In this document: positions 661 through 8,007 of the stretch, piece after piece
How the letters are laid out: every line of letters starts with the position of its first letter
Numbering within the stretch: position 1 is the first letter of the stretch
DNA from: Janthinobacterium lividum
GTDB taxonomy: Bacteria; Pseudomonadota; Gammaproteobacteria; Burkholderiales; Burkholderiaceae_D
Reading direction: 5' to 3'
Assembly (NCBI RefSeq): GCF_034424625.1
Contig: NZ_CP139976.1
Location: 2,542,001-2,606,000, forward strand
DNA length: 64,000 bases
The notes under the pieces: model-generated
Told to the model about the DNA's origin: nothing
What the model saw: the letters and a program-made list of their open reading frames with translations, nothing else
Databases searched by the model: none
Made by a program: the position numbers and the translations under genes

Positions 661-2307
661 ATGAATATCACCAAGCAATTAATTCTGACCCTGACCATCG
701 CCTTGCTGGCCCTGCTATTGCTGGGCGCCGGCGGCGCCATCCAGCTGCAGCGCGCCCAGGAGCGTTTTGATACCGTGCAAAACCGCATCATTCCCAGCAT
801 CCAGGGCTTGAATGCGGCCAAGGGTTTCCTGGCCGACTCGCGCCTGGCCGGCTACCGCCTGTCCGTATTCTCGAACCTGGCCGACAAGACGGCGCTGGAC
901 AAGGCCGTGGCCGATGCCAACACGAATTTCGACAAGGTCATCGCCACCTACCGTGCCGAGCGCCTGTATGACGCGACGGACAGCAAGATGCTCGACGCCG
1001 ACCAGGCCGCGATGGAAGCCTACCGCCGCGCGCTGGCGCCATTCTTTGCCGCCGCCTACGCGGGCGACATGGATGGCGTACGCGCCACCTTGCTGGCCGG
1101 CACGCCGCTGGCCATCACGGCCGCCGCCGCGAAGAAAAGCATGGATGACCATATCGCCTACAACAACAAGCTGGTCGATGACGTGAAAGCGGAAAGCCTG
1201 GCCGCCTACGACACGGCGTTCAACACCATGCTGGCCGTGCTGGGCGTGGCCGTGTTGCTGACGGGCGCGCTGGCCTGGCATATCTACCGCACCATCAGCG
1301 GCGGCCTGGGCAATATCGAACACACGCTGGAGCGCGTCAGCGCTTCGCTGGACCTGTCCGCCGCCATGCCCGTCGAGCGCATGGATGAAGTGGGCCGCAC
1401 GGCCACCGCCTTCAATAAATTCCTCGAGCGCATCGTCGGCGTGATCGCCACTGTGCGCGCCTCGGCCGATACGGTCAGCGTGGCGGCCGCGCAGATTTCC
1501 GCCGGCAACGCGGACTTGTCGGTGCGCACCGAACAGCAGGCGTCTTCCCTGGAAGAAACGGCATCCAGCCTGGAAGAGCTGACCTCGGCCGTGCGCCAGA
1601 ATACGGACAATGCGCGCCAGGCGAACTCGCTGGCCGTGTCCGCCTCGGACGTGGCCCGCAAGGGCGGCGCCGTGGTGGCGCAAGTGGTGGGTACGATGGG
1701 TTCGATCAACGAATCGGCGAAGAAGATCGCCGACATTATCGGCGTGATCGACGGCATTGCCTTCCAAACCAACATTCTGGCGCTGAATGCGGCCGTGGAA
1801 GCGGCGCGCGCAGGCGAGCAGGGCCGGGGCTTTGCCGTGGTGGCCACGGAAGTGCGCAACCTGGCGCAGCGCTCGGCGGCTGCCGCCAAGGAAATCAAGG
1901 GCTTGATCGAAGATTCCGTCGATAAGGTCAACACGGGCAGCGCGCTGGTCGACCAGGCGGGCGCGACGATGGAAGAAATCGTCGCCAGCATCCGCCGCGT
2001 GACGGACATCATGGGCGACATCGCCAACGCCAGCCACGAGCAGAGCGCCGGCATCGAGCAGGTGAATCAGGCCATTTCGCAAATGGACCAGGTCACCCAG
2101 CAAAACGCGGCCCTCGTGGAAGAGGCGGCCGCCGCGGCTTCCTCGCTGCAGGATCGTGCCGTGGAACTGGTCGACGTGGTGGCCGTGTTCCGCCTGCGTG
2201 GCGACGCCCAGGGCAAAGCGCTGACAGTGGCGGGTGGCTTGCCGGCCGCGGCTTCAGCCTCAGCCAGCCGGCGCCTGGCGCTGCCTGGCCGCAGTGCCCG
2301 CGCTTAA
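661..2307 (+). CDS. Methyl-accepting chemotaxis protein
   Basis: This 548-residue inner-membrane receptor couples a periplasmic signal to the CheA/CheW kinase. It has a first membrane helix at about residues 5-28, a periplasmic helical ligand domain of roughly 160 residues, a second membrane helix near 187-207, a HAMP domain to about 262 and a long cytoplasmic coiled coil. The hairpin tip is recognisable (GIAFQTNILALNAAVEAARA, followed by GRGFAVVATEVRNLAQRSA). Glu/Gln-rich flanks carry likely methylation sites. The ligand is unknown. No clear Shine-Dalgarno precedes the ATG, but the coding pattern begins there. A strong terminator follows, so the gene is probably monocistronic. Confidence 0.93.
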   Translation: MNITKQLILTLTIALLALLLLGAGGAIQLQRAQERFDTVQNRIIPSIQGLNAAKGFLADSRLAGYRLSVFSNLADKTALDKAVADANTNFDKVIATYRAERLYDATDSKMLDADQAAMEAYRRALAPFFAAAYAGDMDGVRATLLAGTPLAITAAAAKKSMDDHIAYNNKLVDDVKAESLAAYDTAFNTMLAVLGVAVLLTGALAWHIYRTISGGLGNIEHTLERVSASLDLSAAMPVERMDEVGRTATAFNKFLERIVGVIATVRASADTVSVAAAQISAGNADLSVRTEQQASSLEETASSLEELTSAVRQNTDNARQANSLAVSASDVARKGGAVVAQVVGTMGSINESAKKIADIIGVIDGIAFQTNILALNAAVEAARAGEQGRGFAVVATEVRNLAQRSAAAAKEIKGLIEDSVDKVNTGSALVDQAGATMEEIVASIRRVTDIMGDIANASHEQSAGIEQVNQAISQMDQVTQQNAALVEEAAAAASSLQDRAVELVDVVAVFRLRGDAQGKALTVAGGLPAAASASASRRLALPGRSARA

Positions 2308-2324
2308 GTTTAGTCATTGAATTG

Positions 2325-2344
2325 CCCCGGTACGCCGGGGTTTT
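2325..2344 (+). terminator. Rho-independent terminator of the chemotaxis receptor gene
   Basis: A perfect 6-bp stem CCCCGG/CCGGGG with a TACG tetraloop is followed directly by TTTT, 17 bases after the receptor stop codon. It insulates the receptor from the AT-richer island that follows. Confidence 0.85.
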
Positions 2345-2483
2345 GGTGATGTCATTGTTCTATTCGGGGGGGGCGTTGATGTTCGGTATCTGTGACGACG
2401 GTAAGTAAGGTTTCCCGGGCTGACAGGGAAGGAGGGCACTGCCCTGTTTCGCAAGTCAGGGTGCCTGCCTTTCGCACACGTGA

Positions 2484-2507
2484 GTCCGCTTTCGCCCCAA
2501 AGCGGAC
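2484..2507. repeat. Island repeat copy 1 (perfect hairpin form)
   Basis: The arms GTCCGCTTT (2484-2492) and AAAGCGGAC (2499-2507) form a perfect 9-bp stem around a 6-base CGCCCC loop. It lies 9 bases past the stop codon of the last small gene of the island. It shares GTCCGCTT with the other copies but lacks TGGCCG. No T-tract follows on either strand, so it is not a standard intrinsic terminator. Confidence 0.8.
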
Positions 2508-2516
2508 CATCGAGAA

Positions 2517-2831
2517 CTAGGATTCCTTCTTGATGGTAATGTTGTTTGCGCGAATTCTGATGTCGCCGAAGTCACCTTCAAGGATTGCACCATCTTCAGT
2601 TGTCGCCGCACCTTCAAGCTCACCAAGACTTGGAACATTCTCACGAGTTGTGATGTTCCCGGCAAAACGAAGTTCGCCAACTTCAAATCCAATTGGCGAG
2701 CCATCGGAATTTGTCGCCAGCAACTCAAATCGTGTCCCGTCATAGCCAATCAACTTCGTCAGAAAATAGGAATGGCGCTGCTCCAGGTAGAAGGAGAGCA
2801 CGTAGGTCTCAGCTAGGTCTTCGATCTTCAT
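2517..2831 (-). CDS. Small hypothetical protein, island gene A
   Basis: A 104-residue acidic protein without signal peptide or membrane segment; I do not recognise its family. The sequence alternates charged and beta-prone stretches (HSYFLTKLIGYDGTRFELLATN, then EVGELRFAGNITTRENVPS), suggesting a compact beta-rich cytoplasmic fold. The ATG is preceded by AAAGGAA at good spacing, so the start is firm. It is the last of seven co-oriented genes and is followed at once by the hairpin copy of the island repeat. By size and setting it could be an immunity-type protein, but nothing in the sequence proves that. Confidence 0.7.
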   Translation of the reverse strand: MKIEDLAETYVLSFYLEQRHSYFLTKLIGYDGTRFELLATNSDGSPIGFEVGELRFAGNITTRENVPSLGELEGAATTEDGAILEGDFGDIRIRANNITIKKES

Positions 2832-2880
2832 GCGCGATCATTCCTTTAATATTCCTGGCGTTGTTCACGTATTTGGCTAG

Positions 2881-2908
2881 GTCCGCTTTTGGCCGGTTGC
2901 CGCCGTTC
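2881..2908. repeat. Island repeat copy 2
   Basis: Reads GTCCGCTTTTGGCCGG and then a GTTGCCGCCGTTC tail. It lies between genes B and A. The whole 28-base unit matches copy 3 at all but a few positions, so the conserved unit is longer than the shared core. Confidence 0.8.
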
Positions 2909-2943
2909 ATGTGAGACAGCTTCCGTCCCACAGCCGACCTTTC

Positions 2944-3453
2944 CTAACCAATGCTAGCTTGGAAAATTCGATCGCTGGAAGCGAGAAATGCGTTTGGATC
3001 CTTGACGAATCTGGATGCAGACGATGCTTTCAGGGCTTCTGTCACTTGTTCCACTATGGGAGCGATAACTCGTCCCCCTTCGCACAGTACTATGCAGTAC
3101 CCACAGTCATCAGCAATAGCAACGATGCTTTCGAGCAGCCTGATGTTCAGATTTGAACAATCCAGACGAACGTCAACGGAATCGTCCCAAACCTGTATGT
3201 CGTCTGTTTTAGAATTGCCATACATAGTCGCCTCAGCGCTCCAAGAATCAGCTACGGGCAATACACTCTTCGCGAGGGCCTGTATGGCAGATTTGTCTAC
3301 GCCTTCCCAATAATTTGGCCAAACCATTTCATCATCGAAACTTGCGTCTGGCACAACAGCAGCAAACTGAAGCAGGAAATCAGGCACTTTGCCATGTACT
3401 TCGACAATCCTTCTTGCGGGAATCAAGGTGAACTTGAATTGCCATACAGCCAT
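2944..3453 (-). CDS. Hypothetical protein, island gene B
   Basis: A 169-residue soluble protein beginning MAVWQFKFTLIPARRIVEV; I cannot assign a family. The N-terminal half looks like a mixed alpha/beta fold (VWPNYWEGVDKSAIQALAKSVLP). The middle holds IQVWDDSVDVRLDCSNLN, and the C-terminal half is helical. GGAGAA precedes the ATG, which supports the start. G+C is clearly lower than in the flanking housekeeping genes. The gene stands alone between repeat copies 3 (upstream) and 2 (downstream). A role as a stand-alone immunity or stress protein is a guess from context. Confidence 0.72.
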   Translation of the reverse strand: MAVWQFKFTLIPARRIVEVHGKVPDFLLQFAAVVPDASFDDEMVWPNYWEGVDKSAIQALAKSVLPVADSWSAEATMYGNSKTDDIQVWDDSVDVRLDCSNLNIRLLESIVAIADDCGYCIVLCEGGRVIAPIVEQVTEALKASSASRFVKDPNAFLASSDRIFQASIG

Positions 3454-3512
3454 TGAAATTCTCCAGTATTCAAAAAAGCTCGACCGTTCTGCCCCCGAAC
3501 GCTTTGTCGAAC

Positions 3513-3563
3513 GACTGCTTCTGGCCGGTTGCCGTCGTTAGCAGGTTACGCCCCGAAGCAGAC
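3513..3563. repeat. Island repeat copy 3
   Basis: Begins GACTGCTTCTGGCCGG with a GTTGCCGTCGTTA tail (3513-3540). GAAGCAGAC at 3555-3563 is an inverted match to the opening GACTGCTTC with one mismatch, so the unit can fold into a long stem-loop of about 51 bases. It lies between genes C and B. Confidence 0.78.
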
Positions 3564-3601
3564 ATAGATCTGACGCATTCGACATATGCCACCGCAGCCG
3601 A

Positions 3602-4024
3602 TTAAGCGTCGTGATAAACAACGCCGTATGTGTCGAACATAGCTCCAGCTAGCTCGACCATGCTTAAGCCGCTGCGCTCCCAAAAAAACAGAAAGTATTC
3701 CAACTTGTCGTAAGGTGCTTCAGCGTCCATGCCGTGCAGCGCACAAATCGTGGTTCTGATACGCAACACCTCAGGGTCATCCGACATATCGCGTCCTCGG
3801 ATGGTCTCCCAAAGCCTCACCCGGACAGCTAAGGCCTCGCTATCCGTTGCCGCGCCCTCAAGATATCGTTTAGCAGCCAAAACAGAAGACTGCGCGGTAA
3901 CGGGTAGACATTCGATCACCCGAGCCAGGGCGTTAACCATAAAGCGTTGAGCATCACCGTGCTCTACCGGATCATCCAGATCAACGGTGGATGAAATAAC
4001 ATCAAAAGGATCACGGTGAGACAT
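3602..4024 (-). CDS. Hypothetical helical protein, island gene C
   Basis: A 140-residue, mostly helical, acidic cytoplasmic protein beginning MSHRDPFDVISSTVDLDD. It contains RVRLWETIRGRDMSDDPEV and ends with a helix-rich segment (YDKLEYFLFFWERSGLSMVE). I know no family with confidence, though the general pattern resembles small putative immunity proteins. A weak AGAAAG precedes the ATG. It lies between repeat copies 4 (upstream) and 3 (downstream), with about 38 bases from its stop to copy 3. Base composition matches the rest of the island, not the GC-rich flanks. Confidence 0.7.
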   Translation of the reverse strand: MSHRDPFDVISSTVDLDDPVEHGDAQRFMVNALARVIECLPVTAQSSVLAAKRYLEGAATDSEALAVRVRLWETIRGRDMSDDPEVLRIRTTICALHGMDAEAPYDKLEYFLFFWERSGLSMVELAGAMFDTYGVVYHDA

Positions 4025-4061
4025 GCTGACTTTCTGAGTAAAGCTTAATTGGTCAATTGCC

Positions 4062-4088
4062 GACTGTCCGCTTCTGGCCGAAAGCGGC
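4062..4088. repeat. Island repeat copy 4
   Basis: Contains GTCCGCTTCTGGCCG, the consensus form. CCGCTT (4068-4073) and AAGCGG (4082-4087) form a 6-bp stem around the TGGCCG core. It lies between genes D and C. Confidence 0.8.
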
Positions 4089-4098
4089 TTGCCCTGAG

Positions 4099-4485
4099 CT
4101 AACTTACCGCAATAAGCGGACTAGGTAGCTCATATGAGGACTCTGCAATCACCTCACCAGAAAAAACACCAAGCATTGCATGCTCGAACCTCTCCGTAAA
4201 AGCTAAAAGCTGATCTGGTGACAAATTACTAATCAGGAACACGTCATTAACGTTGTAATGTGCCAAAATCAAACTAGAGACTTTTGCGTAGAGAGTTGCA
4301 ACAGCCAGCGCTAGTTCTCTGCTGACAGCCCCATGATGTGCTTCAGAACGTGCGGCTTCCACCAAATCCCAGTGCAGTTTCCAGAACTCGACAATATTCC
4401 AATCACCGTATTCAGTCAGCCTTTCATAGAACGAACCTTGCCAATCAGGATTCCCGGGAAGATTTCTGAATATTTGTTCGTACAT
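4099..4485 (-). CDS. Possible Imm41-like immunity protein, island gene D
   Basis: A 128-residue soluble protein. The N-terminal segment (NLPGNPDWQGSFYERL, then YGDWNIVEFWKLHWDLVEAA) recalls the pattern of the Imm41 immunity family: an N, a short SFxxxL helix, a W-D/N-rich turn, then FWxLxxxL. That match is from memory and unverified. Immunity proteins bind and neutralise a partner toxin of a polymorphic or contact-dependent toxin system, but no toxin gene is adjacent. AGGAGT lies about 13 bases before the ATG. Repeat copy 4 starts 10 bases after the stop codon. Confidence 0.62.
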   Translation of the reverse strand: MYEQIFRNLPGNPDWQGSFYERLTEYGDWNIVEFWKLHWDLVEAARSEAHHGAVSRELALAVATLYAKVSSLILAHYNVNDVFLISNLSPDQLLAFTERFEHAMLGVFSGEVIAESSYELPSPLIAVS

Positions 4486-4520
4486 GATCGGGCTCGGTAC
4501 TCCTGGGAATAAATTTCTAT

Positions 4521-4545
4521 GACTGCTTCTGGCCGGTACCGGGCC
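4521..4545. repeat. Island repeat copy 5
   Basis: Reads GACTGCTTCTGGCCGG, identical to copy 3 over these 16 bases. Between genes E and D, starting 8 bases before the stop of E in coordinate terms. Confidence 0.78.
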
Positions 4546-4553
4546 TAGAGCAA

Positions 4554-5093
4554 TTAGCCGTCAAGCGCCAAATCGAATTCGCTTGGCGAGGCAGCGCCAA
4601 TCGTTAAGCGTGCACCTCGTTCTAATATTGCCAAAGCATCTGGTCCAACCCAATAAGCTTTAACGCGGACAAATTTCTTGGTCAACGCAGTAGAGAACGC
4701 ACGTTGTAGCCTCGTGGCCACCGGAGTGTCTGATGCCGTCGAGATACGACCAGATAACAAAATCTGGTCAGAATAAAAGCCGCCGTGCTGGAAAACAATA
4801 CTATCAGGATTCATCAACTGGTCGATGGCGAATTTTTTTCGCCCATCATTTTGTTGGATGCCCCTACTCTGGATAAGAGACGCCCGATCAGTGACAAGGT
4901 ATCCTGGCCCCGCTACCGCACTAGTAACAACTAAGGCTTTTGTTAGTGTCGGAAGTTCAGCCCCGCTGTCAAACGTCGCGTAAGTATCCTCGTCAAATAG
5001 CCCAGTTCGCGTATAGCCAAGCGGAATCTTCGCCTCAACAAGTTCGAAAACTGGAAGAAGGTCCTTTGCTGTCGCGTAGAAATGGCGTTGCAT
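4554..5093 (-). CDS. Hypothetical protein, island gene E
   Basis: A 179-residue protein from the ATG at 5093 (MQRHFYATAKDLLPVFELVE); a TTG two codons upstream is possible but less likely. The second half carries the motif-like stretch IVFQHGGFYSDQILLSGRIS and then a C-terminal RVKAYWVGPDAL segment. It reads as a conserved hypothetical of proteobacterial accessory regions whose function I do not know. No signal peptide is seen and no good Shine-Dalgarno is visible, so it may rely on translation from the upstream gene. Island repeat copies 6 and 5 flank it. Confidence 0.7.
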   Translation of the reverse strand: MQRHFYATAKDLLPVFELVEAKIPLGYTRTGLFDEDTYATFDSGAELPTLTKALVVTSAVAGPGYLVTDRASLIQSRGIQQNDGRKKFAIDQLMNPDSIVFQHGGFYSDQILLSGRISTASDTPVATRLQRAFSTALTKKFVRVKAYWVGPDALAILERGARLTIGAASPSEFDLALDG

Positions 5094-5115
5094 AAGCAAT
5101 TTTCAAAAAAATATC

Positions 5116-5133
5116 AGTCCGCTTGTGGCCGAC
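5116..5133. repeat. Island repeat copy 6
   Basis: AGTCCGCTTGTGGCCGAC, one base off the consensus core. It lies 5 bases past the stop codon of gene F in the direction of transcription. Confidence 0.75.
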
Positions 5134-5138
5134 ACCCG

Positions 5139-5648
5139 TCAGGTCGGTGAAAGCGACAGCACTCTATCAGAAAGAATCACGCTATCCTTTTCATGCTGCC
5201 CGTGACGCCAAGATGCATCTTCGTAGCGCACATAATACTCAGCACTACGCGCAGCCAAGGCCAACTTGCTTAACATCGACAGGAAATCTATGAGTTTGAA
5301 GGTTTCGCCGTCAAAGTCCTGGGGGAAAAACGTGATCTCACAGAATACTCTGTCTGGTTCATCCCAGCGGAAGTACGCTTGGATATGCTCAGGGTTGCTG
5401 CCGCCATTCCAAACAGTGGATAGCGAGCCAGATGCCTGTCGAAGATTGCTTTGCAACTCGGCTTTTGCAATATCATCGCCCTCACTCGTCATCGCCTGAA
5501 CCAAAGTCCAAGATGATGCTAGAACCCTTAGGACGTCAATGGCTCCAGATGTCGAAATGCATTCGGCGAAGTTGATATCTCTACACGAACCATCACAGTC
5601 CAGAAGAGCGGTTTCAACGCGGCGTCGAGTAAGTTCGTCTATGTTCAT
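5139..5648 (-). CDS. Hypothetical protein, island gene F
   Basis: A 169-residue cytoplasmic protein starting MNIDELTRRRVETALLDCDG. The frame stays open further upstream through repeat copy 7 and into gene G, but protein-like sequence starts at the ATG at 5648. It is mixed alpha/beta with an acidic aromatic stretch (CEITFFPQDFDGETFKLIDF), a pattern often seen in small immunity or SMI1-like proteins, though no family is certain. No strong Shine-Dalgarno is seen. It lies between repeat copies 7 and 6. Confidence 0.68.
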   Translation of the reverse strand: MNIDELTRRRVETALLDCDGSCRDINFAECISTSGAIDVLRVLASSWTLVQAMTSEGDDIAKAELQSNLRQASGSLSTVWNGGSNPEHIQAYFRWDEPDRVFCEITFFPQDFDGETFKLIDFLSMLSKLALAARSAEYYVRYEDASWRHGQHEKDSVILSDRVLSLSPT

Positions 5649-5672
5649 CAGAATTGTAGTTTGGACAGGTAG

Positions 5673-5690
5673 GTCCGCTTTTGGCCGAAC
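5673..5690. repeat. Island repeat copy 7
   Basis: GTCCGCTTTTGGCCGAAC, matching copy 2 over its first 15 bases. It begins 7 bases past the stop of gene G in the direction of transcription. Confidence 0.78.
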
Positions 5691-5697
5691 TCGGTCT

Positions 5698-6117
5698 CTA
5701 ATCAAAAACAATTCGCTGCCCCACTTCGAATGCATTCTCGTGGCAGTAAAACAGGATAAGCGGCGTGTCGTTCGAATAAACCATCGCGTCGTCACGTGAA
5801 GGGATAAAAATATCCGGCCAATTCTCGACCAGGAACACACTGCTACACAAGAAACATTCGTCTTCTCCAAACACCACCACGACCTGCTGGTTTCCCGGCA
5901 CACGGGCACGTAACCATTTGCTTACGATGGCCGCATCGTTTCCGGATGCGAACCGCTCGATCGAGTCAACGGTGTTAACGTTCAGGCCGAGATGGGTCTT
6001 TGAGTCGTGAAGGCCTGCTACCTCATAGGCGCGGCGGGCATCCTCGGCATTCAGCCAGGCGATATCCGCTGAATGATGCTGTAATTCCTGAACCCGCCAA
6101 TGTGCTGTGTTCATCAT
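5698..6117 (-). CDS. Hypothetical protein, island gene G (first of the array)
   Basis: A 139-residue protein beginning MMNTAHWRVQELQHHSADIAW. The core QQVVVVFGEDECFLCSSVFL and the following acidic/aromatic stretch suggest a beta-rich small domain; I do not recognise the family. A weak GAGA precedes the tandem ATG codons, so the second ATG may be used. As the upstream-most gene of the island it is where an array promoter would be expected. The stretch before it is AT-rich, but no convincing -35/-10 pair could be fixed. Confidence 0.68.
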   Translation of the reverse strand: MMNTAHWRVQELQHHSADIAWLNAEDARRAYEVAGLHDSKTHLGLNVNTVDSIERFASGNDAAIVSKWLRARVPGNQQVVVVFGEDECFLCSSVFLVENWPDIFIPSRDDAMVYSNDTPLILFYCHENAFEVGQRIVFD

Positions 6118-6496
6118 TTCTCAAAGTTTCATATGCTCATGGCCATGGCCATGGCGAGCAGCAGCTTGCGGTCGAATCCGGAGCATCCCTTGATCCTGGC
6201 GCAAAACAAGGCTGTCATCATGGACCGGCTTTATCTGCGACCAGTATAACCACAATCTGATTCTATTTGCATGATAAAAAAACAGTGTATCCTGCAATTC
6301 CAGCAGATATATTTTTTTGTCGAGGCAAAGAAATGGCTGCGGCATTTGTTCCTGCTGGCGGAGTATTTTTGAATTGGCGCAATGGCATGGCGATACTGCG
6401 TGATGAATGCTATGCCGCGGGCCAATATTCAGACACTGCACGGCGCCGGATAACAGGCCCAGTTACTTTCACACAATGATAGGGAGATCCCCCAAA
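6118..6496. other. Gene-poor boundary segment of the island
   Basis: No convincing gene was found in these 379 bases. The segment starts with three overlapping CCATGG-type repeats (about 6142-6156) and includes a 38-codon plus-strand frame ending near 6249 that resembles no known protein. It then becomes AT-rich between about 6250 and 6330. The composition drops back to the GC-rich average only within the next gene, so this looks like the outer boundary of the acquired island or a decayed gene. Confidence 0.45.
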
Positions 6497-6964
6497 TTGG
6501 CGCAAATTCAAGAAAGCATCCACATTGCCGTCCCGCCCACGGTCATCGATCAAATTTGGAGCGAGGTCGACCGCTGGCACTTGTGGGATCCCGATACAAA
6601 GCAAGCCCGGCTCAATGGACCGTTCGCGGTGGGAACACAGGGCAGGATAATTCCCAGCAAGGGGATGGGTATTGCGATGCTGGTCACGGAGCGCTCGGCA
6701 GGCCGCTCGTTCACCGTCGAGGGCTACATCCCTTGGTTCCGCATCCACTTCGAGCACACGGTTGTTGCGGCAGAGGGCGGGTCGCAAGTCGTTCACCGCG
6801 TGTGGTTCACGGGAGCCCTTGCCTTTCTGTTCGGCCCAGGCGTTGCCAGACAGGTCCGGGACGGGCTTCCCAGGACGATGCGCTCGCTCAAGGCCTATGC
6901 CGAGAAGCGCAACGACACTCGCCACAATGCCGAGGAGGGCGGAGCTAACGCGACAACAGCCTGA
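6497..6964 (+). CDS. SRPBCC family protein
   Basis: About 155 residues with the START/Bet v1-like ligand-pocket fold. It opens with the typical strand and helix (IQESIHIAVPPTVIDQIWSE, then VDRWHLWDPDTKQARL), and continues with a beta meander ending FEHTVVAAEGGSQVVHRVWF and a long C-terminal helix. Such small proteins bind hydrophobic ligands or act as polyketide-type cyclases; the ligand here is unknown. I chose the TTG at 6497 because AGGGAGA lies about 9 bases upstream and family members start just before this strand. An ATG at 6476 in frame has no ribosome site. Confidence 0.75.
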   Translation: MAQIQESIHIAVPPTVIDQIWSEVDRWHLWDPDTKQARLNGPFAVGTQGRIIPSKGMGIAMLVTERSAGRSFTVEGYIPWFRIHFEHTVVAAEGGSQVVHRVWFTGALAFLFGPGVARQVRDGLPRTMRSLKAYAEKRNDTRHNAEEGGANATTA

Positions 6965-7113
6965 TAGATAGTTTCTCTTCGTCAATTCCTTGCAAACTGC
7001 CCCGTCAAATTAACGTGCCGTTCCCGTCATGATGGAATACAATTCCTGCGTGGCAGCCAGCTTGCCTGGCAAGGCCGGGCACGGCGCCTTTGACCTTGGA
7101 AAGATGTTGGCTT

Positions 7114-8007
7114 ATGACTCTGCAGTTCCCTCAGCGAACGGCGCCTTGCGCGCCATCCACGCTCCGCATTTCACGCAAGCCCCCCGTTTCCCTGTTCGTC
7201 CTGACATTTTCGTGCCTGCTGTTCACGGCGCCCGTCATGGCGGCTGCGCCTGCCAGCAGCAGTGTCATGCTGGAAGAGCTGACCAGCACGGAGTTGCGCA
7301 GCCGTATCGACCACGGCGCCACGACCGTGCTGGTGCCGATTGGCGGCGTCGAGCAGAGCGGGCCGTATATCGCGCTGGGCAAGCACAATGTGCGCGCCGG
7401 CCTGCTGGCGCGGCAGATTGCGCAAAAGCTGGGCAATACCATCGTCGCGCCCGTCGTCTGCTACGTGCCGGAAGGCGCGGTTTCTCCGCCGGCCGGCCAC
7501 ATGCGCTTTGCCGGCACGATCTCGATTCCGCCTGCCGCCTTCGAAGCCGTGCTGGAAGGGGCGGCCGCCAGCCTGCGCCAGCATGGTTTCCGCGACATCA
7601 TCTTTCTCGGCGACCATGGCGGCTATCAAAAAAATGAGCAAAACGTGGCCAACAAACTCAACCGCGCCTGGGGCAAGGCTTCCGCCGGCAAGGATGCGCG
7701 CGCTTACGCCTTGCTCGACTACTATGACATCACGCAATCGGCCTATATTGCCGAGTTACAGAAACGCGGCCACAGCAGCGCCGAGATCGGCCTGCACGCA
7801 GGCTTGGCGGACGCAGCCTTGATGCTGGCGACGGACCCGTCGCTGGTGCGCAGCGACGCCATGGCCCACGGACCCAAGCCCGGCGTGGCGGACGGCGTGC
7901 GCGGTGACGCGACGCGCGCCACGGCTGAACTGGGCCAGATCGGTGTCAAGCTGCAGGTGGATACCTCGGTGGCTGCCATCAAACAGCTGCTGAAACGTAA
8001 TAAATAA
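7114..8007 (+). CDS. Exported creatininase-like protein with altered metal-site motifs
   Basis: A 297-residue protein with a signal peptide (hydrophobic core SLFVLTFSCLLFTAPVMA) followed by a creatininase-fold domain. Creatininase-type enzymes are usually cytoplasmic metal-dependent amidohydrolases. The usual EQHGPH-x-D ligand motif reads EQSGPYIALGKHN, GHGGN reads DHGGY, and HAGE-TS reads HAGLADA, so most expected ligands except the first Glu and one His are replaced. It lies 55 bases before a beta-propeller gene, probably in one operon. It may bind a different metal or be non-catalytic. The ATG at 7114 has GGAAAG upstream. Confidence 0.78.
   Translation: MTLQFPQRTAPCAPSTLRISRKPPVSLFVLTFSCLLFTAPVMAAAPASSSVMLEELTSTELRSRIDHGATTVLVPIGGVEQSGPYIALGKHNVRAGLLARQIAQKLGNTIVAPVVCYVPEGAVSPPAGHMRFAGTISIPPAAFEAVLEGAAASLRQHGFRDIIFLGDHGGYQKNEQNVANKLNRAWGKASAGKDARAYALLDYYDITQSAYIAELQKRGHSSAEIGLHAGLADAALMLATDPSLVRSDAMAHGPKPGVADGVRGDATRATAELGQIGVKLQVDTSVAAIKQLLKRNK

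Follow-up and report, generated by a model that had tools for sequence, protein, structure and literature searches.

Introduction

Integrons are the textbook case of one-gene cassettes. Cre of phage P1 resolves plasmid dimers at loxP (13-8-13), and the type VI secretion system (T6SS) immunity gene arrays of Vibrio cholerae reportedly reflect the sequential displacement of effector genes. This study concerns an array of seven small genes, each accompanied by a short repeat, at positions 2484–6117 of a 64,000-nucleotide stretch of Janthinobacterium lividum (GCF_034424625.1, contig NZ_CP139976.1, positions 2,542,001–2,606,000), the whole of which is called the window below. Integrons comprise an integrase (IntI), an attI site, and attC gene cassettes, as defined in PMC8618304. 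The recombinase-associated acquired interbacterial defence (rAID) arrays of Bacteroidales combine a predicted tyrosine recombinase, co-oriented genes of about 100–300 codons, conserved intergenic motifs, and orphan immunity genes, and the mechanism of their biogenesis is an area of active research (PMC12247911). The dif (pdif) modules of Acinetobacter plasmids consist of genes between short sites with inverted arms and a 6-bp spacer, and these spacers need to be identical or nearly identical (PMC13141974).

The array in the window resembles integrons in its tandem, co-oriented, mostly single-gene cassettes with mixed cargo. A tyrosine recombinase as candidate enzyme, a probable insertion point behind a fixed element, and integrase-remote arrays comparable to clusters of attC sites lacking integron integrases (CALINs) add to the likeness. 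Site-specific gain and loss of single-gene cassettes, a further integron trait, is found here by sequence comparison. We give a probability of roughly 0.6 to the reading that this is a cassette array with exchange inside a TGGCCG core, driven most likely by a Cre-like tyrosine recombinase encoded elsewhere in the same genome.

Mobility of single units

Seven co-oriented minus-strand open reading frames (ORFs; g1–g7) lie within 2484–6117 (Table 1), where the preliminary description had placed a row of seven small genes. The G+C content is 49.9% across the array, against 65.7% in the chemoreceptor gene and 64.0% in the whole window, which agrees with the lowered value reported before. The unit carrying g3 is duplicated in the same genome, where the second copy stands alone between two half sites, and both ends of the 535-bp identity fall in the repeat. 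Homologues of g3 were found in 8 of 195 family genomes. Full-length copies at 99–100% identity are present in G123, G005, and G466, in addition to two in its own genome, and g3 has other neighbours in other genomes. In G123, g3 is 99–100% identical while the gene at 7090–8007 is only 92% identical.

The locus was compared with 21 relatives (20 further genomes and G123), giving 22 loci with the window. The gene g7 is kept at 82–85% identity in 13 of the 21 relatives. Together with a site it is found in 14 of the 22 loci, the window included, with nine different neighbouring units behind it (up to three mismatches were allowed in the site; L171 and L178 among the 14 have two). In 13 of the 14 genomes, 11 bases separate the site from the g7 stop. 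At this locus G123 carries g3 and two other units, and G459 lacks g7 and carries a g5 copy between two sites that is 96% identical, compared with only 87% for the gene at 7090–8007. In several other relatives the locus is a gap of only about 1.6 kb. Among 403 inter-site segments, some of them chance segments inside ordinary genes, 54 clusters had more than one member, and 17 of these had at least two different next neighbours.

Site orientation is uniform. After removal of double calls less than 60 bp apart, 104 of 108 adjacent site pairs were alike in orientation across 20 Janthinobacterium loci, and 49 of 51 across 11 loci of other genera. The longest ORF is on the gene strand in 110 of 126 inter-site segments. 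By eye, recurring leader-like sequences follow the first site at several loci. Judged from these comparisons, single units have evidently been gained, lost, duplicated, and transferred, they share one orientation, and several arrays exist per genome, so that the mobility of the unit is well supported. The earlier idea of an acquired, modular accessory array is borne out: the same genes occur with the same repeat beside different neighbours, single units differ at one locus behind a conserved g7, and neither a fixed gene order in all relatives nor a repeat unlinked to gene gain was found.

Uniform orientation bears directly on the possibility that host XerC/XerD act here on dif-like sites, as in the Acinetobacter modules. 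The 6-bp spacer between inverted arms would suit these enzymes, and tyrosine recombinases scoring under the IntI cut-off, presumably including XerC/XerD, were found in all 40 Janthinobacterium genomes searched. The arms of the present sites, however, appear unlike dif arms. Sites pointing one way also mean that single units can move. In dif modules, which are attributed to XerC/XerD, orientation alternates (PMC13141974), whereas the arrays here are one-way and chromosomal. The one-way orientation rules against a dif-module system, and we regard Xer action on these sites as very unlikely.

Recombination site and point of exchange

Allowing up to three mismatches, the pattern GTCCGCTTYTGGCCG occurs 20 times in the window; shuffled sequence gives 8.0 ± 3.1 matches, and none of 100 shuffles reached 20. 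Ten of the 20 matches fall in the array, including all seven with zero to two mismatches. Six are of the TGGCCG type, all on the plus strand, and the copy beside g1 is of a different type, GTCCGCTTTCGCCCCAAAGCGGAC. The distance from stop codon to 15-base unit is 18, 48, 74, 18, 18, 7, and 10 bases for g1 to g7. A repeat near each stop thus holds for all seven genes as first described, but the distances of 5–44 bases given then are replaced by 7–74.

A larger site extends beyond the 15-base unit, which forms its left part. In 139 dereplicated array sites picked by their left 15 bases only, the right arm is also conserved, with 0.97, 1.01, 0.74, and 0.41 bits at C20, G22, C24, and G19. These positions mirror G5, C3, G1, and C6 about an axis that runs between positions 12 and 13, which defines a 24-bp dyad of a 9-bp arm, TGGCCG, and a second 9-bp arm. 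The centre is almost invariant (96–99% per base, in a set whose search pattern itself includes TGGCCG). Site forms vary: some are long, with GTCCGCTTCTGGCCGGTTGCCGTCGTTGGCAGGTTCCGCCCCAAAGCGGAC as the consensus of 30 examples, and others are short near-palindromes.

The point of exchange was sought among 559 sites from a loose pattern, chance matches included, and the pair tests were restricted to flank-sharing sites. In 97 pairs with the same left and different right flanks (37 independent left flanks), identity is 0.82–1.0 at positions 1–15 and then 0.36 at position 16. In 88 pairs with the same right and different left flanks (26 independent right flanks), identity at variable positions 8 and 9 stays close to baseline (0.44 and 0.37; baseline 0.28 and 0.34), and across positions 10 to 14 it is at least 0.94. 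This sharp switch places the exchange within positions 10–15. On these alignments the exchange clearly appears to lie inside TGGCCG, the sequence on its left going with one gene and that on its right with the neighbour. Core variants go with the left gene; GTCTGCTATTGGCCG, for example, is common to two sites that diverge within three bases. Comparison of the sites further shows that the left arm of a unit goes with the gene in front of whose start it lies rather than with the gene behind which it stands. The layout of one gene plus one 3′ site proposed in the preliminary description therefore stands as to number, one site per gene, but the site does not belong to a single unit and is split between neighbours.

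A repeat merely dispersed behind genes, and shuffled by homologous or microhomology-based recombination with no dedicated enzyme, might leave similar arrays. The short palindrome is indeed found sparsely across the phylum (6 of 398 genomes) and in 30 virus-contig stretches, mostly singly. Against such shuffling, the junctions are limited to six bases of the 15-base repeat across the 37 and 26 independent flanks, and the conservation of the right arm does not depend on the search pattern. This explanation seems to us quite improbable.

The same data speak to whether the array could be a true integron whose attC sites are unusual, or a remnant CALIN of such an integron. Either would match the units of one gene with a partly palindromic site, the mixed cargo, and the arrays without a nearby integrase. 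The long sites are partly self-complementary, with 76% of cells paired. Single-sequence folds are strong in two of six sites (z −3.3 and −4.7) and weak to modest in four (z −0.4 to −2.0); the terminal site at 2484 forms a perfect 9-pair hairpin (z −4.7). Pair covariation is weak, the score being reached by 15 of 500 shuffles and other measures by 26 to 133 of 500, and no pair is predicted by RNAalifold. Since the arms derive from different units, covariation tests folding poorly here. The integron integrase model TIGR02249 scored above its curated cut-off in none of the 40 genus genomes, and R″/R′ pairs number 0 on either strand of the array (mean 0.3 in 200 shuffles), in agreement with the earlier observation that no GTTRRRY/RYYYAAC pair is present. 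The absence of IntI and of attC boxes rules against integron identity. Exchange at the centre of a short dyad, with arms belonging to different units, is a further difference; so is the place of the candidate enzyme, which borders its array at the 3′ end with the genes convergent. The system works like an integron yet is not one by the IntI and attC tests, and a disguised integron is extremely unlikely.

Candidate recombinase

The preliminary description had proposed looking for a recombinase elsewhere in the genome. One is present: a 339-aa tyrosine recombinase (C1:3466816-3467835; PF00589, 3.3e-14) whose gene is directly followed by three sites and small antisense ORFs, which makes it a candidate for these sites. 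Its closest solved relative by sequence is Cre (phmmer E 4e-8). The identity to Cre is low and Cre handles no cassettes, but the catalytic residues align, the R-K-H-R-W/H-Y set is present, and the R, K, H, R, W, and Y positions are invariant in 20 homologues. A close homologue (at least 70% identity) is found in 36 of 40 genus genomes, and the recombinase thus looks like a resident gene.

In 28 of these 36 genomes the 6 kb 3′ of the recombinase gene was scanned. The flanks hold 25 sense and 2 antisense sites (binomial p 3e-6); 12 of the 28 contain one or more sense sites, and 5 contain three or more. A few single sites may be chance, the background being 1 in 57.5 kb on both strands; a further 36-kb stretch, selected for containing matches, had four. 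By eye, about 4 of 28 loci have a terminal-type site right behind the recombinase gene, and about 6 of 28 have a leader-like end beyond the array, away from the recombinase. In genome G136, a g3-like frame with a stop stands shortly behind the recombinase.

That all six central bases are conserved agrees with the overlap rule of tyrosine recombinases and speaks for a tyrosine enzyme. Most likely, the enzyme would be this Cre-like protein acting in trans on the window array.

Several observations weigh against this reading. By the pattern used, 16 of the 28 Janthinobacterium flanks have no sense site within 6 kb. No recombinase homologue was found by tblastn or hidden Markov model (HMM) in the array stretches checked, the window's included. 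In other genera, the homologue is absent (E ≤ 1e-8) from 6 of 10 site-rich genomes, which were chosen by their number of dyad matches, some possibly chance; among 15 loci, the three with a homologue show no array and the other 12 have no homologue; and no array was recognised in nine recombinase flanks. The weak covariation described above counts in the same direction, giving no convincing support for an attC-like folded site. The cassette model also leaves unexplained the CGCCCC spacer of the terminal site, a type with kept arms that relatives also carry in the corresponding position (e.g., L107, L174, L178, L181, and L183). Separately, a de novo repeat search beside the recombinase at four Janthinobacterium loci and three of other genera returned nothing convincing, and no Cre-like gene was found in the 30 virus-contig stretches with the palindrome.

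A serine recombinase module found at three loci is likewise at odds with a Cre-like driver. It lies inside an array in G059 (L286:4655-9045), between two sites in G026 (L310:2973-8224), and beside two sites in G082 (L311:4497-8672). At L286:5255-8757 the module consists of a large serine recombinase (PF00239 and PF07508) followed by two PF07506 proteins. In both L286 and L310 the start of the unit falls within the core site, and the DNA outside it differs; at L286 identity starts at 4655, six bases into the site at 4649. A large serine recombinase acting together with two RepB-like partners (or relics of one) might drive the cassette system. However, homologous modules in five plasmid regions and three virus-contig loci have no site cluster nearby, and the module could therefore be a mere passenger. 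In L310 its recombinase gene is interrupted, and no such module was found in the Janthinobacterium loci scanned. The closest named protein match is from Herbaspirillum huttiense, and the hosts are Herbaspirillum-like genomes. Serine recombinases have a 2-bp overlap, which the six conserved central bases exceed. We consider a serine driver unlikely.

Returning to the Cre-like candidate, its arrangement invites comparison with rAID arrays. The layouts are alike, going by the description in PMC12247911. The differences are that rAID arrays belong to another phylum, that the cargo here is only partly immunity-like, and that the window array and the other arrays checked have no adjoining recombinase. 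The V. cholerae T6SS immunity gene arrays, like the present ones, reportedly vary between strains.

Cargo genes

None of the seven array proteins scored above the Pfam cut-off or had an NCBIfam match at E ≤ 0.01, and the g3 model matched no fold in the PDB at E ≤ 0.001. A wider set of 98 Janthinobacterium ORFs was picked by hand, mostly from 119 inter-site ORFs with some outside strict segments, and a few of its members may be flank genes (one carries the rve domain of transposases). Among the 25 of 48 families listed for this set are isochorismatase, RraB, Tdi1-type T6SS immunity, WapI immunity, Barstar, DUF4304, GFA, and GNAT. Another 48 ORFs, from other genera and the virus-collection contig L195, include SUKH, Imm6, RraB, DUF4259, and GNAT, among others. 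Among the families listed, none occurs in more than two ORFs of either set. PADLOC matched 1 of the 98 proteins. Immunity-like families are a minority in both sets, and the window has one weak match (g4). The cargo is mixed as in integrons, with an immunity-like share. A Tox-REase-5 domain protein lies near one array of another genus.

Distribution of sites and arrays

The pattern GNCYGCTTYTGGCCGVNTGC, with one mismatch allowed, has 220 matches in 40 Janthinobacterium genomes against 5 for the reversed pattern, and at least one match in 38 of the 40. The exact 25-base form was found only in Janthinobacterium, in eight stretches, in a collection of 84,980 species, and a strict form with the far arm in 2 of 300 genomes of the order, one being its own genome. 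The bare dyad pattern has 90 matches against 13 reversed in 13 genus genomes and 272 against 39 in 182 family genomes of other genera, where clear one-directional arrays also occur.

The arrays had no match in plasmid and phage collections by DNA similarity. The virus-collection contig L195 (9548-14193) has six sites, all pointing one way, and small genes in between; by eye, at least one gene is SUKH-like and two cassette ends resemble those of G059 (L286). Among the 30 virus-contig stretches with the palindrome, nine share one common context (L191, L193, L197, L198, L200, L204, L215, L219, and L220), to which L224 (G558) is added. The L215 stretch beside the palindrome reads as MerR-like, and we take it to be possibly part of a mercury-resistance transposon. 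In G136, contigs C19, C21, C24, and C72 carry g3 fragments, at a contig end or start in at least three, which suggests repeated copies that broke the assembly. A transposase with HTH_38 and rve domains (L010:4466-5635), presumably IS30-like, lies within the site cluster at C1:3.70 Mb.

Features of the locus

The array is bordered by the chemoreceptor gene ending at 2307 and by an ORF at 6407–6964. The name chemoreceptor was taken over from the preliminary description; the ORF is probably SRPBCC-like, and a further neighbour is probably a creatininase. A promoter scan of 2300–6500 gave one promoter-like site against 4.1 in shuffles, and such sites are thus no commoner than by chance.

Table 1. 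Genes, repeated unit, and sites of the array (window positions unless another sequence is named)
Feature	Position	Strand	Description
g1	2517..2831	-	104 aa; no Pfam match (E ≤ 1) or NCBIfam match (E ≤ 0.01)
g2	2944..3453	-	169 aa; no family match
g3	3602..4024	-	140 aa; predicted model all-helical, mean predicted local distance difference test (pLDDT) 89.5
g4	4099..4485	-	128 aa; weak Imm41 match, E 0.0028, under Pfam cut-off
g5	4554..5093	-	179 aa (181 aa from a TTG start)
g6	5139..5648	-	169 aa; no family match
g7	5698..6117	-	139 aa; resident anchor gene of the locus
Duplicated unit with g3	3546..4080		535 bp; 99.1% identity to C1:3592620-3593154 of the same genome (blastn)
Array-terminal site	2484..2507	+	GTCCGCTTT-CGCCCC-AAAGCGGAC; 9-6-9 layout kept, spacer different
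Core site 1	2881..2904	+	GTCCGCTTT-TGGCCG-GTTGCCGCC
Core site 2	3513..3536	+	TGGCCG type; long form runs on to 3563: GAAGCAGAC
Core site 3	4066..4089	+	TGGCCG type
Core site 4	4521..4544	+	TGGCCG type
Core site 5	5117..5140	+	TGGCCG type; right arm overlaps g6 stop codon
Core site 6	5673..5696	+	TGGCCG type; behind resident gene g7
Terminal-type sites elsewhere	L107 6096; L174 4003; L178 5094; L181 3222; L146 near recombinase		spacer CGCCCC

Proposed mechanism and significance

The array may be understood as a row of mobile single-gene cassettes, each made of one gene with half a recombination site at either end. Neighbouring cassettes would meet in a 24-bp site with inverted 9-bp arms around TGGCCG. 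A site-specific recombinase would pair two such sites and exchange strands within the six central bases, so that one cassette leaves, presumably as a circle, or enters; the shared direction of the sites in an array would let this happen without inversion. New cassettes would enter mainly behind a fixed 5′ element, which is g7 here and a leader sequence elsewhere, and core site 6 is, judging by the locus comparison, the likely recipient (attI-like) position. The circular intermediates, the polarity of insertion, and the identity of the enzyme are what we infer in this scheme.

A broader proposal, which we put forward tentatively and at slightly less than even odds, is that the Oxalobacteraceae evolved a second kind of integron, in which a vertically kept Cre-like recombinase handles single-gene cassettes at double-stranded 24-bp sites in several chromosomal loci. 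As part of the same proposal, cassettes, some of them immunity genes, would be collected, lost, and reordered. No title or abstract opening in the literature searched on Janthinobacterium cassettes, integron-like systems, and acquired immunity genes describes such a site or system, in a search that left subscription papers mostly outside.

If the proposal is true, gene-cassette collection arose more than once, and the same behaviour with other sites and apparently another enzyme would show that the integron design is not unique. The system would then be a tractable model for how rAID-type arrays get built, and the question of how immunity-gene arrays are assembled would become testable in a fast-growing proteobacterium. 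It would also account for a share of the small unknown genes in these soil and water bacteria as exchanged cassettes.

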